Assembly: GCA_028583405.1 (NCBI GenBank)
Contig: JAPTMU010000116.1
Location: 533,882 to 597,881, forward strand
DNA: 64,000 nt
Direction: 5' to 3'
From: Pogonophryne albipinna
Lineage: Eukaryota; Chordata; Actinopteri; Perciformes; Artedidraconidae
The notes under the pieces were generated by a model. The model worked only from the letters and a program-made list of their open reading frames with translations, ran no database searches and was not told the DNA's origin. Both the position numbers and the translations under genes were made by a program. Each line of letters starts with the position of its first letter. Positions within the stretch are counted from its first letter, which is position 1. Below, one piece after another: positions 24,578-56,518 of the stretch.

Positions 24578-24599
24578 ACCCTCCGGTATCATTCGATTG

Positions 24600-25345
24600 G
24601 ACTACGCAAATTAGTCATTCGAGACAAAAATGTCCACTACAAAAGACTTTGATAAAAACATTATATTAAAAGGTTTTTTTCACAACTTTTTTGGGTTCAA
24701 TCTTTAAAGCAACTTCCGCCCTAATAGAAAATACCAAAAATGTAATCATTTTCAGGATTTTAACCCTTTAAATGCCATTTTGAATACATGAAACCGCTGT
24801 TTTTTTTCATGTGTTATTTTCCAAAAAATACATATCTGGTGACTGGCTCTTTTTTTTTATAACAGTCTTGGATATGTCAAAGATTAGCAGCAAAATGGAT
24901 TTTTTTGCATTATTAGTTTTTGCACAAAATCAGATTGAACAAAAAAGTCACACATTAGTTATTCGGGACAAAAATGTCCACTTCCAAAAACTGCTCTAAA
25001 ATGACAACAGATTAATATTTTTAAAAACTGTTTGGGGTTAAATCTTTCAATCAACTTCAGTCCTGATCAAAAATACCAAATGTTAACTTATGTTCTGGAT
25101 TTTAACCCTTTAACTGCCAGTTTGAAAACATGAATTTGCGTTTTCTATGAAAAACATGCACAAAAAGGCAGTTGTTTTCCATATAATGAATGTTGGGGAG
25201 GTCGGCTTTTTTTTATCACAGTCTTGGATATGTCAAAGATTAGCAACAACATTTATTTTGGTGGATTATTAGTTTTTGCACAGAATCAGATTAAACAAAA
25301 AATACACATTAGCCACTCGCAGACAAAAATGTCCCATCCACTCCC
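24600..25345. repeat. Left terminal ~365-bp tandem units of the palindrome
   Basis: Two units (about 24601-24965 and 24966-25335) share GACAAAAATGTCC, TTTAACCCTTTAA.TGCC, ACAGTCTTGGATATGTCAAA and ATTATTAGTTTTTGCACA. TTTTAACCCTTTAA recalls piggyBac-type termini, but there is no transposase. The same two units lie inverted at 55604-56380. No coding potential. Confidence 0.85.
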
Positions 25346-25513
25346 ATTATAATAATAATAATATAATAATAATAGATTTAATTTGTTAGCGCTTTTACAG
25401 GTGCTCAAAGACGCTTTACAGATATAGTGAAGGGAAAAGAAAAGGAAGGAACAACAAATAAATATATAGTTAAAGTTAAAGTTAAAGTCAAATAATACAA
25501 AAACAATCACACA

Positions 25514-26895
25514 TTAAAAGCCAGATTGAAGAGGTGAGTTTTTGTGAGTTTTTTGAAGGTGGGTAGAGGTCAGTGCAGTCTCTGATGGGTTGTGGGAGTG
25601 AGTTCCAGAGGGAGGGGGCAGCGACGGAGAAGGCTCTGTCCCCCCAGGTCTGGTGATTGATGTGGGTGGGGATGGATTGGAGGTTGGCTTCTGATGAGCG
25701 GAGGCAGCGGGAAGGGGTGTGGTGGTGCAGCAGGTCCTGTGAGGTAGGGGAGGGCCTGATTGTTGAGGGCTTTGTGAGTAATGAGGAGGACTTTGAAGTT
25801 GATTCTTTGACGGACAGGGGAGCCAGTGGAGGTTCTGGAGGACGGGAGTGGTTTGGTCTCTGGGAGCGGGTGTGGGTGAGGAGGCGGGCAGCAGAGTTCT
25901 AGATATTTTGGAGTTTATTGAGGAGGTTGGATGGTATGCCGTAGAGCAGGGGTGCTCAAACTCAAGGCCCGGGGGCCAAATCCGGCCCGCGACTTCATTT
26001 ATGTGGCCCCAAAGAGCTTGCAAAGAATATAATATGTTTATTATACAGTTTACGTGCCGCTTTACAGAAGCACGTTGCCCATACTGGAGCACAATGCTCT
26101 CAAATTTGACTTTTTCTCAGAATTTGACTTTTTTTCTTCTAAATATGCCTTTTTTTTTTTATTTGCCGTTTTTTTTATATTACTTTTTTTTTCTCCAGAA
26201 TTTGGCTTTTCTTTTTAAATCATTTTTGTTGACATTCTCACTGAAGAGACTTGCCATTATTTGCTCTAGACTTCTGCTTTCAGACGTAGTTAATTATGAA
26301 GTTATTACCCTATCCGATAATAATCCAATGCAGAGGTAATCATGTAATATAATACATTATTTTATATATTAAATATTTATATATGTATTTTTATATAGTC
26401 TTAAAGTTACAGCCGGCCCTTTGAGTGCAACCATAATGCTGATGTGGCCCGCGATGAAATTGAGTTTGACACCCCTGCCGTAGAGGATGCTATTGCAGTA
26501 GTCGAGTCGTGATATGATGAATGCATGAATCAGGGTTTCAGCAGCAGAGGAGGAGAGTGATGGGCGGAGACGGGCAATGTTTTTGAGGTGGAAAAAGGTA
26601 GTCCTGGTGATGTGATTGATGTGGTGGTTGAATTTGAGCTGACTGTTTAAGATGACTCCGAGGTTGCGGATGTGAGGGGGGGGGGAGGAGATAGAGTGTG
26701 GCTGTCAATGGTGAAGTTGAAATTCTGGATGGCTTTGGTACGGGATGGGGGGCCGATGATGATGATGTCTGATTTGGCACTGTTCAGTTTGAGATAGTTT
26801 GTTTGCATCCATGCTTTTATTTCTGAGACAGTTGGTGAGAGTGGAGTGTGTTGTGGGGGTGATGGTTTTTGTTGAGATATAAAGTTGGATGTCAT
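25514..26895 (-). pseudogene. LINE ORF2 C-terminal part, frameshifted and split by a MITE
   Basis: Continues the reverse transcriptase reading after a frame change near 26705-26895 (IKAWMQTNYLKLNSAKSDII, typical of the post-catalytic region). Reading resumes on the far side of the hAT MITE with ISRTLLPASSPT, LHWLPCPSKNQ and PSGTHSHNPSET-type segments in shifted frames. Several frameshifts exclude a functional product. Confidence 0.7.
25947..26477. mobile_element. hAT-type MITE nested in the LINE
   Basis: Ends CAGGGGTGCTCAAACTCAAGG (25947) and the complement of CAGGGGTGTCAAACTCAATTT (26477), with GGCCCGC-rich sub-terminal parts. It is flanked by a perfect 8-bp target duplication, CCGTAGAG, at 25939-25946 and 26478-26485. 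The 531-bp interior is AT-rich without a transposase. 8-bp duplications and CAGGGGTG ends are hallmarks of hAT elements. Confidence 0.93.
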
Positions 26896-53828: not shown

Positions 53829-54593
53829 TGATGAGGACCTTTGCTGAGGAGGTTGAGGAGCTGCTGAGGAACAACAAGATGGTGATGAGGTTGAGATGTA
53901 TGAAGGACTACAAAACCTTTTAGATGGAAAAAGCCTGATGTTCACTAAAGTGCTTAGTGATCCCCTCCTCAATCACACCACAAAGGGGATGATAGCACCA
54001 GAGATTGCCCCAGGAGTAACAAGAATATTTGTTGCGCCGCCACGTGAAGCCATGCTTAGAGAAATGATCAGATGCTTGTGGTGGAGTCTGATCGTTCTTC
54101 GTCTGACCCTTCCCCTGAAAGTGGAGAGGACACAGAGGATCCCATCCCGTAGCTGCGCTACATTCCTCTGCACTATCCTATCCAATGTTTGCTCAAACAT
54201 CTGTGGCATCAACATCCCTCCAGTTTGCCACCGAACGTCCCCCATGCAGGTGTGTCATGTCGACAATACTGCTGATGATCTCAGGGGTAAAGAATAAATC
54301 AAACAAGGATTCCACGTCATGAATTCTTATTTATGCCACTCATGGCATAACGCGTGGGCCCTGAAACCAAACCTCTGGCAGCAGGAATGTAGCGCGGCGT
54401 TTCCTCGTGAGAGGGAAACCAGATTTGAAAATGTTTTGATGTCCACCCACTGCCACGATCCTCCGGATAGGATAGTGCAGAGGAATGTAGCGCAGCTACG
54501 GGATGGGATCCTCTGTGTCCTCTCCACTTTCAGGGGAAGGGTCGGACGAAGATCAGACTCCACTACAAACTCCACATCAGATTCTCATTCTCA
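53829..54593. other. Right-arm-specific insertion with an internal ~97-bp inverted repeat
   Basis: The left arm has about 95 bp of different sequence at this place (30771-30866). Here 765 bp are present. 54083-54183 and 54465-54561 are inverted copies (GATCCCATCCCGTAGCTGCG, TAGTGCAGAGGAATGTAGCG). Open frames of 133 and 102 codons cross it but look like chance. A short acidic frame, ESDRSSSDPSPESGEDTEDP, lies in one repeat. The origin is not recognised. Confidence 0.6.
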
Positions 54594-55603
54594 TGTTTGG
54601 CAACAAAGTGTTTTATCTTTGTGCTGACTCCTTTCAAGCACAGTTCAGGCAGATCCACACCAGATTCTCCTTCTCAGGGTGTTTCTGTTTCAGAGGATGA
54701 GTCCTGCAGCTGAAGTTACGGGCTGCATGAGACCATCTTACTCATGTTACTGCTTGTTGCGCATCACAGGAATGAAATGACCATCCAGCCAAACTATACA
54801 TATTTGAAGCTTTGGCTTTGCAGCCAGGTGTTTTTATTTACTTCAAGGAGTGTATGTATCGCTGTGTATGTCTGTTTGACATTATCAAAGGACTTTGAAG
54901 TTCCAAACAATTCAAAACATCGAGGTCAAGCTGGGTCAAGATCATACATCTGTTTACCTCAAAGACACATGAAACAGCACAAATGAAAAACAAAACGCCA
55001 TGAGAGCACACTTAGTCCTGTCTCATTCTCACACACAATCACTCACACACATACAAGGTATAAGGAGGTTTAATATGTAAGAGTGTGTATGAGTTTGGGA
55101 ATGAGGGACTGAGAGAAAAAGAGAGAGAGAAAGAAAGATATGAGGCGAAAACTGCGACTTGCTGTAAACCAAATCTACTGTATATTGTTGTCTCTGTACA
55201 CACACACTGTACATCCAGACACACACACACACACACACACACACACACACACACACACACACACACACACACACACACACACACACACACACACACACAC
55301 ACACACACACACACACACACACACACACACACACACATTTCTCAGCTGATACCACTCTTCCACATCCATACCAACACACCTACACCATATTAGTTGCATA
55401 CATGTATTCCAATGGCTGGCAGGGCCCCATTATACAACAGGCAAATAAACCAAGAAATGACAAGCATGTAATTCAATGGTAAAATGTCACATCTGGTCAT
55501 ATAGAGTAAAAAGGACAAATTGAACAATTTTCCTCCAATATAAAACCCTGACATTACAAAATGCATGATTTTATACCGGTATGGCGGAGAGATCAAAATA
55601 TGT
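54594..55603. other. Right arm outer non-coding part with CA microsatellite
   Basis: Mirror of 29837-30770. The CA tract at 55203-55336 is about 134 bp here but only about 20 bp of pure repeat in the left arm. No gene is supported. Confidence 0.6.
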
Positions 55604-56380
55604 GGTTATAATGGGAGTGGATGGGACATTTTTGTCCACGAGTGGCTAATGTGTGAGTTTTTTGTTTAATCTGATTCTGTGCAAAAACTAATAATCCACC
55701 AAAATAAATGTTGTTGCTAATCTTTGACATATCCAAGACTGTGATAAAAAAAAGCCGACCCCCCCCCAACATTTATTATATGGAAAATAACTGCCTTTTT
55801 GTGCATGTTTTTCATAGAAAACGCAAATTCATGTTTTCAAACTGGCAGTTCAAGGGTTAAAATCCTGAACATAAGTTAACATTTGGTATTTTTGATCAGG
55901 ACTGAAGTTGATTGAAAGATTTAACCCCAAAAAGTTAAAAAAAATATTAATCTGTTGTCATTATAGAGGAGTTTTTGGAAGTGGACATTTTTGTCCCGAA
56001 TGACTAATGTGTGACTTTTTTGTTCAATCTGATTTTGTGCAAAAACTAATAATGCAAAAAAATCTATTTTGCTGCTAATCTTTGACATATCCAAGACTGT
56101 TATAAAAAAAAAGAGCCAGTCCCCAGATATGTATTTTTTGGAAAATAACCCATTTTCTCTGTTTTCATCATGAAAAAAAACAGCGGTTTCATGTATTCAA
56201 AATGGCATTTAAAGGGTTAAAATCCTGAAAATGATTACATTTTTGCTATTTTCTATTAGGGCGGAAGTTGCTTTAAAGATTGAACCCAAATAAGTTGTGA
56301 AAAAAACCTTTTAATATAATGTTTTTATCAAAGTCTTTTGTAGTGGACATTTTTGTCTCGAATGACTAATTTGCGTAGTC
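55604..56380. repeat. Right terminal ~365-bp tandem units of the palindrome
   Basis: Inverted copy of 24600-25345, two units, with uninterrupted junction sequence ATGGGAGTGGATGGGACATT. Homology to the left arm ends at GCGTAGTC (56373-56380). Confidence 0.85.
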
Positions 56381-56518
56381 GATTTGTTACACAGTGAATT
56401 AAAGACCGATTTGAAAAATTGAAATTGGAATTCCAAAATAGATCGAGAAAATAGCCTTGTTACAAAAAATCAGGCCATTTGCACTAACACAACCAAAGTT
56501 ATTGCAAAAAGTGAAAAA

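Follow-up and report, generated by a model that had tools for sequence, protein, structure and literature searches.

A palindromic, multicopy element with Maverick/Polinton-type ends in Pogonophryne albipinna, probably a non-autonomous snap-back derivative

Introduction

Vertebrate Mavericks (Polintons) are virus-like elements, yet particles have not been observed; they encode a protein-primed PolB, may end in either (AGT)2//(ACT)2 or (AG)3//(CT)3 motifs, are flanked by 6-bp duplications and, in most cases, comprise two centre-directed modules flanked by accessory regions, as described in the excerpts of PMC8097293 that were available. Here, we analyse a palindromic element located in a 64,000-nucleotide stretch (the window) of the genome of Pogonophryne albipinna (assembly GCA_028583405.1, contig JAPTMU010000116.1, positions 533,882 to 597,881). 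The element most plausibly represents a non-autonomous, self-complementary snap-back derivative of a Maverick/Polinton that would be replicated and integrated in trans, a reading to which we attach a rough probability of 0.78.

The palindrome resembles several described systems in part. With vertebrate Mavericks it shares the (AGT)2//(ACT)2 ends, the 6-bp duplications, the long terminal repeats and the centre-directed genes (PMC8097293, in excerpt). In one Maverick of the same genome, termed C23, the terminal repeat is in addition homologous to that of the palindrome, and there is a gene related to gene B, one of the four genes (A–D) of the palindrome. In contrast to Mavericks, the palindrome is an inverted duplication throughout, the window contains no PolB, and an integrase, ATPase, protease or capsid was not recognised, while genes A, C and D were not found in the C23 Maverick. 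Non-autonomous DNA transposons and miniature inverted-repeat transposable elements likewise keep their ends, lose their enzymes and outnumber autonomous copies; unlike these, the palindrome is approximately 10–13 kb long and carries genes. A further parallel is offered by the symmetric palindromic defective genomes of adenoviruses, in which protein-primed linear DNA gives rise to an inverted duplication of one genome end, although these arise in culture and are not known as integrated families. Parvovirus replication is hairpin-primed, unlike the protein-primed route proposed here. The snap-back defective and satellite genomes of adeno-associated virus are self-complementary and keep only some parental genes (PMC8235507, in excerpt), but are not known as a many-copy chromosomal family; the palindrome has the layout of snap-back defective genomes, in which inverted halves flank a short spacer that stays unpaired. 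As regards virophages or other capsid-bearing satellite viruses, no capsid match was obtained for genes A–D, by searches that also missed the capsid ORFs of the C23 Maverick. Among the titles and abstract openings surveyed, palindromic or non-autonomous Mavericks were not found, and the available portions of a report on Maverick density at cod inversion breakpoints (PMC12368964) and of a general description of Polintons (PMC6431247) do not mention palindromic ones.

Results

Extent and symmetry of the palindrome

The core palindromic element occupies positions 30865–53829 (22,965 bp) and measures 13,327 bp (~13.3 kb) once a nested 9.6-kb retrovirus (9,633 bp) and its 5-bp duplication are subtracted; ten further copies are 9,588–12,834 bp long. 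It starts with AGTAGT and finishes with ACTACT, is flanked on both sides by the 6-bp duplication GATGAG, and its first bases, read inward on either strand, are AGTAGTATTAACC. The original prediction of a single element spanning 24578–56518 was thus too wide, as the core with its target-site duplication is limited to the above positions and the outer inverted parts are separate. The features of the core are as follows:

30865–53829, no strand assigned: core palindromic element with AGTAGT...ACTACT ends, 6-bp target duplication and arms, enclosing the retrovirus at 32869–42501
30859–30864, plus strand: left target-site duplication, GATGAG
53830–53835, plus strand: right target-site duplication, GATGAG
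30865–31823, plus strand: left terminal repeat, which has its homolog in that of the Maverick (85–95%, in pieces, to L054, a terminal piece of the C23 Maverick)
52838–53829, minus strand: right terminal repeat, likewise a homolog of the Maverick repeat (matching L054 at 91% over 630 bp and again at 91% over 260 bp)
43129–43433, plus strand: stretch after gene A matching the meeting point of the two convergent modules of the Maverick (83% to L053 697–1022; right-arm copy at 51375–51678, 82%)
45613–46506, plus strand: ~170-bp tandem repeats (mirror copy at 48136–49195)
46630–46830, no strand assigned: axis, a local palindrome (88.7%) with its middle at ~46730 and a short asymmetric spacer that is also found in other copies

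Self-comparison of the window identified inverted arm pairs, for example 30865–31642 versus 53829–53052 (99.0%), 32204–32868 versus 52798–52123 (97.3%) and 42536–46522 versus 52271–48297 (96.9% over 4,005 bp). The arms are inverted copies of each other, as had been proposed, and the axis lies where it was placed (about 46731). The further claim that the inversion extends over the full length of the arms holds for these long pairs but fails at the centre, which is unequal, gene D being present in the right arm only. The axis sequence (46640–46794) resembles part of gene C, with 82.6% identity between 46709–46794 and 49684–49762; because of this resemblance, the fold-back may have occurred inside a second, partial copy of gene C.

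Ends and target duplications are those of Mavericks

Sixteen copies were inspected, i.e. the window copy and five fetched others, followed by ten more. AGTAGT/ACTACT-type ends and a perfect, site-specific 6-bp duplication were present in every one of the 11 copies, that of the window among them, for which both ends could be read (five duplications were read by eye and six by script). The C23 Maverick is 14,489 bp long, begins with AGTAGT when read from either end, lies between two copies of a duplication of its own, GTTATG, and encodes PolB, an integrase (rve and Chromo) and a Peptidase_C5 (adenovirus-type protease) that scored barely above the cut-off. In a comparison that is based on this one Maverick read at both ends, its left terminal repeat matched the right arm of the palindrome at 91–95% and the left arm at 85–95%, in pieces, and its right terminal repeat matched at 87% over 1,157 bp.

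The relative of gene B in the C23 Maverick (L053 5310–5810) is situated between the integrase and the terminal repeat, and is 41% identical to the palindrome protein (expect value 1.6e-37). A C-G-C-V-HP-Q-Q-H-C-L pattern is retained in most of ten aligned B relatives, with F replacing the last C in the window copy. The Maverick-related parts of the palindrome comprise its ends, gene B and the 0.3-kb junction stretch after gene A, and no source was found for C, D and most of A. The element, which had been considered not assignable to any known virus or transposon, is placed with the Mavericks/Polintons by its ends, 6-bp duplications, terminal repeat and gene B. A palindrome copy at C17:30.68M (L029/L030) displays a Maverick-type tip, TTTCAATCAC, with the same left/right aaa/aac difference as the C23 Maverick (L053/L054), a likeness that hints at an exchange of ends.

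A shared axis and co-varying arms

The axis region was matched in 9 of the 14 fetched centres. The window and L017 have the same asymmetric spacer, GACACAAAGATGCATTACATCT; that of L022 is nearly identical, as is that of L013 in reversed orientation. Since this asymmetric spacer is common to these copies, a single origin with subsequent spread in palindromic form is most likely, as opposed to independent formation at each site. Near-complete palindromic centres were observed in L013, L017 and L022 (98.7–99.4%), several of the 14 centres retain one D, and L019 and L021 had no match to the D region; palindromes are expected to lose central sequence asymmetrically.

Arm divergence was sampled in gene C (15 copies), gene D (five copies) and two stretches around gene A (four copies each). 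The mean divergence was 0.49–0.79% within copies and 1.8–2.7% between copies. The within-copy means, obtained from differing sets of copies, were 0.64% for D, 0.79% for C and 0.49–0.70% for A, and were not lower near the axis. A similar result was obtained at the extreme tips, where columns 7–30 differed on average at 1.6 positions within a copy as opposed to 7.7 between copies (11 copies), and random re-pairing of left and right ends yielded no set as close as the real pairs in 20,000 trials.

Family size and arrangement

For gene B, the best 150 of 543 candidate matches in the genome were scored, of which 76 constitute 38 close pairs, all of them (38/38) convergent. For gene D, 115 matches (112 of 4,757 candidates scored) form 93 clusters; among the matches listed, 19 clusters include both strands and 17 of these are convergent (one with three matches). 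B or D mark at least 159 separate loci, compared to 35 PolB loci, the latter obtained by merging 78 genomic matches to PF03175. Allowing two mismatches at most, 898 occurrences were counted of a 26-base motif situated immediately inward of the ends, and none of its reversed control. Among 100 listed places of this motif, 17 neighbours lie less than 25 kb apart, 16 of which face inward, one in the same direction and none outward.

Gene content

Complete arms hold four small genes, all directed at the axis, in keeping with the predicted convergent layout, which the open reading frames (ORFs) of the window reproduce. The genes and their associated repeat are located as follows:

51733–52539, minus strand: gene A, 268 aa, intact in the right arm, without family match
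32512–32868, plus strand: left-arm gene A, first part, interrupted by the retrovirus
42502–43074, plus strand: left-arm gene A, second part (the ORF at 42292–43074 begins within the retroviral long terminal repeat)
44194–44700, plus strand: gene B, 168 aa, left arm, related to a gene of the Maverick accessory region
50108–50614, minus strand: gene B, 168 aa, right arm
44769–45233, plus strand: gene C, 154 aa, left arm, intact
49659–50042, minus strand: gene C, right arm, with a reading frame open for 127 aa only (1-base gap between arms)
46919–48019, minus strand: gene D, 366-aa type with a basic middle part, right arm only, with one in-frame TGA
44090–44201, plus strand: ~110-bp repeated 5' stretch ahead of gene B (copies at 46522–46630, 47996–48121 and 50607–50719)

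The ~110-bp stretch precedes both gene B and gene D, which confirms the short repeated sequence reported ahead of the genes. Both window copies of gene B are open, and gene D, confined to the right arm in the window, is present in both arms of some other copies. Comparison of A–D with Pfam, PHROGs, NCBIfam and PDB sequences returned noise-level matches at most, and scans of viral contigs with A, B, part of D and an alignment of the B family detected no relative. A set of 5.8 billion proteins contained three homologs of B and one of D (covering 18%), and five homologs of the B relative of the C23 Maverick, one of which is named as originating from the icefish Champsocephalus esox. Relatedness was not detectable between C and D, B and C, or B and D. 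The structure models were of low confidence (predicted local distance difference test scores of 40.7 for D and 54.0 for B) and too uncertain for a fold search. Full coverage of the query without a stop was seen in 26 of the 115 D matches. The ratio of non-synonymous to synonymous polymorphism (pN/pS), pooled across related pairs and calculated for intact-length ORFs only, which lowers the values, was 0.79 for C (24 distinct sequences), 0.61 for A (four), and 0.44 (five) and 0.45 (14) for D; a value of 0.075 for B was set aside because those hits had been chosen by their similarity to the query protein. The four genes of a complete arm are best read as cargo, A, C and D being without an assigned function.

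PolB loci and the palindrome

A six-frame scan of the genome for PolB produced no match on the contig of the window, and the B and D copies listed all lie more than 20 kb from each of the 35 PolB loci. One PolB locus (L051) contains the end of A and 87%-similar arm pieces around it; at this locus at least, arm sequence and Mavericks therefore meet.

Nested and neighbouring elements

The core is surrounded and interrupted by other elements, which are listed here:

24574–30778, plus strand: left arm of an outer, separate TTAA|CCCTCCGG inverted element, with a long interspersed nuclear element (LINE) at 25353–29835; not part of the core
54594–56380, minus strand: right arm of the outer, separate inverted element (self-comparison)
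32869–42501, minus strand: nested endogenous retrovirus with 430-bp long terminal repeats (LTRs; 32869–33298 and 42072–42501) that are 100% identical and CATGC duplicated at its ends; not part of the palindrome

The outer inverted parts correspond to 24600–25352/29836–30778 versus 56380–54594. The left end of the outer structure, TTTAACCCTCCGG, recurs in L025, beside a palindrome copy at C11:30.77M, and for this reason the structure is regarded as a separate element around the core. Its left arm is split by the LINE, in which RVT_1 was matched and Exo_endo_phos scored slightly under the cut-off. Nested insertions had been predicted, and both the LINE and the retrovirus were identified as such, but the LINE sits in the outer element and hence outside the core. 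The retrovirus is probably young given that its LTRs are identical; an env fragment (PF00429) was the only recognised coding part, and the nine internal ORF pieces tried gave no gag or pol match. A relative of its LTR (88%) lies inside the PolB locus L049. Elsewhere in the window, a Tc1/Sleeping Beauty-type element (10964–11996) possesses 204-bp inverted ends (95.6%) and a 150-aa ORF with HTH_SB and HTH_Tnp_Tc3_2.

Discussion

The derivation of the palindrome from a Maverick may be explained by fold-back of a displaced strand during protein-primed replication, and this step is drawn from general knowledge of protein-primed replicons. A single strand displaced from a linear, Maverick-like genome would fold back and be copied to its end, thereby generating a linear molecule that bears the same replication end at either side. 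Such a molecule could be replicated by the terminal protein and PolB of a Maverick and inserted by its integrase, and its single strands would snap back to a hairpin in each replication, keeping arms and tips alike within a lineage. This process would account jointly for the axis, the arms and the tips. The original prediction of a fold-back product of a linear element that depends on others fits the evidence well, and its observation that no replication or integration enzyme is visible was likewise upheld, with no PolB on the contig and no such family in the scanned ORFs. The hairpin-ended genome suggested as a source is not needed because Mavericks encode a protein-primed PolB (PMC8097293, in excerpt). 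Since no Maverick core gene was recognised in the element, it is regarded as a non-autonomous derivative and not as a Maverick proper, and it is probably a parasite of Mavericks.

A number of findings weigh against this interpretation. At least one end was not located in 5 of the 16 copies inspected; neither end was located in the C4:9.56 copy, and one end was missing from the fetched 701 bp in four of the ten copies read later. The divergence ranges overlap, gene C reaching 2.37% within copies and starting from 0.22% between copies. The tips of the C13:30.73 copy differ at 10 columns even though its target duplication is perfect, and the C3 copy is a second exception with five differing columns. 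Chromosomal gene conversion could be the source of, or add to, the homogeneity of the arms. For 74 of the best 150 B matches, no partner was listed at a distance of up to 15 kb, and the two remaining two-strand D clusters of the 19 point outward, at the near-identical loci C5:19625264-19627427 and C5:19657129-19659292. Of the 16 listed inward end pairs, a PolB locus lies inside only one and a listed B copy inside only one other. Neither feature is enclosed by the remaining 14 pairs, 6.8–15.8 kb apart; these could be palindromes that scored too low to be listed, or Maverick derivatives of additional types, and elements with these ends therefore need not all be palindromic. Coding constraint also appears weak: the D values hint at some constraint, though not strongly, as open copies alone were compared and most change probably occurred after insertion.

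The relationship to a particular parent is a further point on this side. Family searches with A–D and the fused left-arm ORF gave no PolB, integrase, ATPase, protease or capsid match, yet Pfam is also blind to the capsid and ATPase of the C23 Maverick itself, so that the missing capsid and ATPase matches are weak evidence. The direct tblastn comparison weighs more, given this blindness of the family libraries: with A–D as queries against the C23 Maverick, only B and an edge of A matched, and nothing matched the capsid ORFs. Across the Maverick pieces L033–L054, tblastn identified no homolog of C or D and, L051 excepted, edge similarity only for A, so that no direct parent emerged among them. 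Helper dependence, packaging and the functions of the proteins are deduced, and excision and replication are likewise putative.

The similarity of the arms within a copy would also be expected of a static inverted repeat, produced by two insertions or by a chromosomal inverted duplication and homogenised by arm-to-arm gene conversion, a process known from chromosomal palindromes, since conversion too would make arms agree better within than between copies. This explanation is largely refuted by target duplications that enclose the whole palindrome; moreover, 9 of 14 centres share the axis region, the likeness extends to the last bases of the tips, and the arms of a copy are no more alike close to the axis than elsewhere. 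We consider it quite improbable. An error of assembly, in which two haplotypes were joined head to head, has to be borne in mind given that near-perfect palindromes are prone to misassembly, and wrongly joined haplotypes had been named as an outcome that would overturn the prediction. A single misjoin is contradicted by the recurrence of the same layout at many sites with different flanks (all 38 close B pairs being convergent) and by matching target duplications on the two sides of all 11 copies for which both ends were available, and the window arms are ~1–3% apart in the core pieces, all of which leaves this explanation with hardly any credibility.

It is unlikely, if somewhat less so, that the palindrome represents a separate kind of autonomous virus or transposon, with an unrecognised replication or integration protein among A–D and with Maverick ends and one gene that were borrowed. 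The lack of matches above noise for A–D in the four collections searched, the D matches that span the full query without a stop, and the low confidence of the D and B structure models would be compatible with such an element. Conversely, its 6-bp duplications and (AGT)2 ends are the same as those of the local Maverick, gene B is kin to a Maverick gene, and proteins of 154–366 aa would be small for a polymerase. A piggyBac-type or Teratorn-like origin of the core was first suspected from the TTAA|CCC end at 24574, which recurs in L025, and was ruled out by the 6-bp, non-TTAA duplications of the core. The end in question is part of the outer inverted repeat, and the scanned core ORFs matched no transposase or herpesvirus family, making such an origin highly improbable for the core; the outer element itself may be of piggyBac type.

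A snap-back derivative of Mavericks present in many copies with co-varying tips would indicate, at the level of sequence, that both ends are replicated jointly, in the manner of linear viruses with protein priming. More tentatively, and with odds clearly below even, the palindrome could be an inherited satellite in palindromic form that accompanies a Maverick virus of vertebrates; it would reside, as a self-complementary genome, in the chromosomes, be copied and perhaps packaged by Mavericks, carry small genes of its own, be several-fold commoner than its helper and possibly interfere with it. Mavericks may themselves be parasitised in a vertebrate, and the young natural insertions would make it possible to examine if Mavericks are still replicating and if satellites hold them in check.

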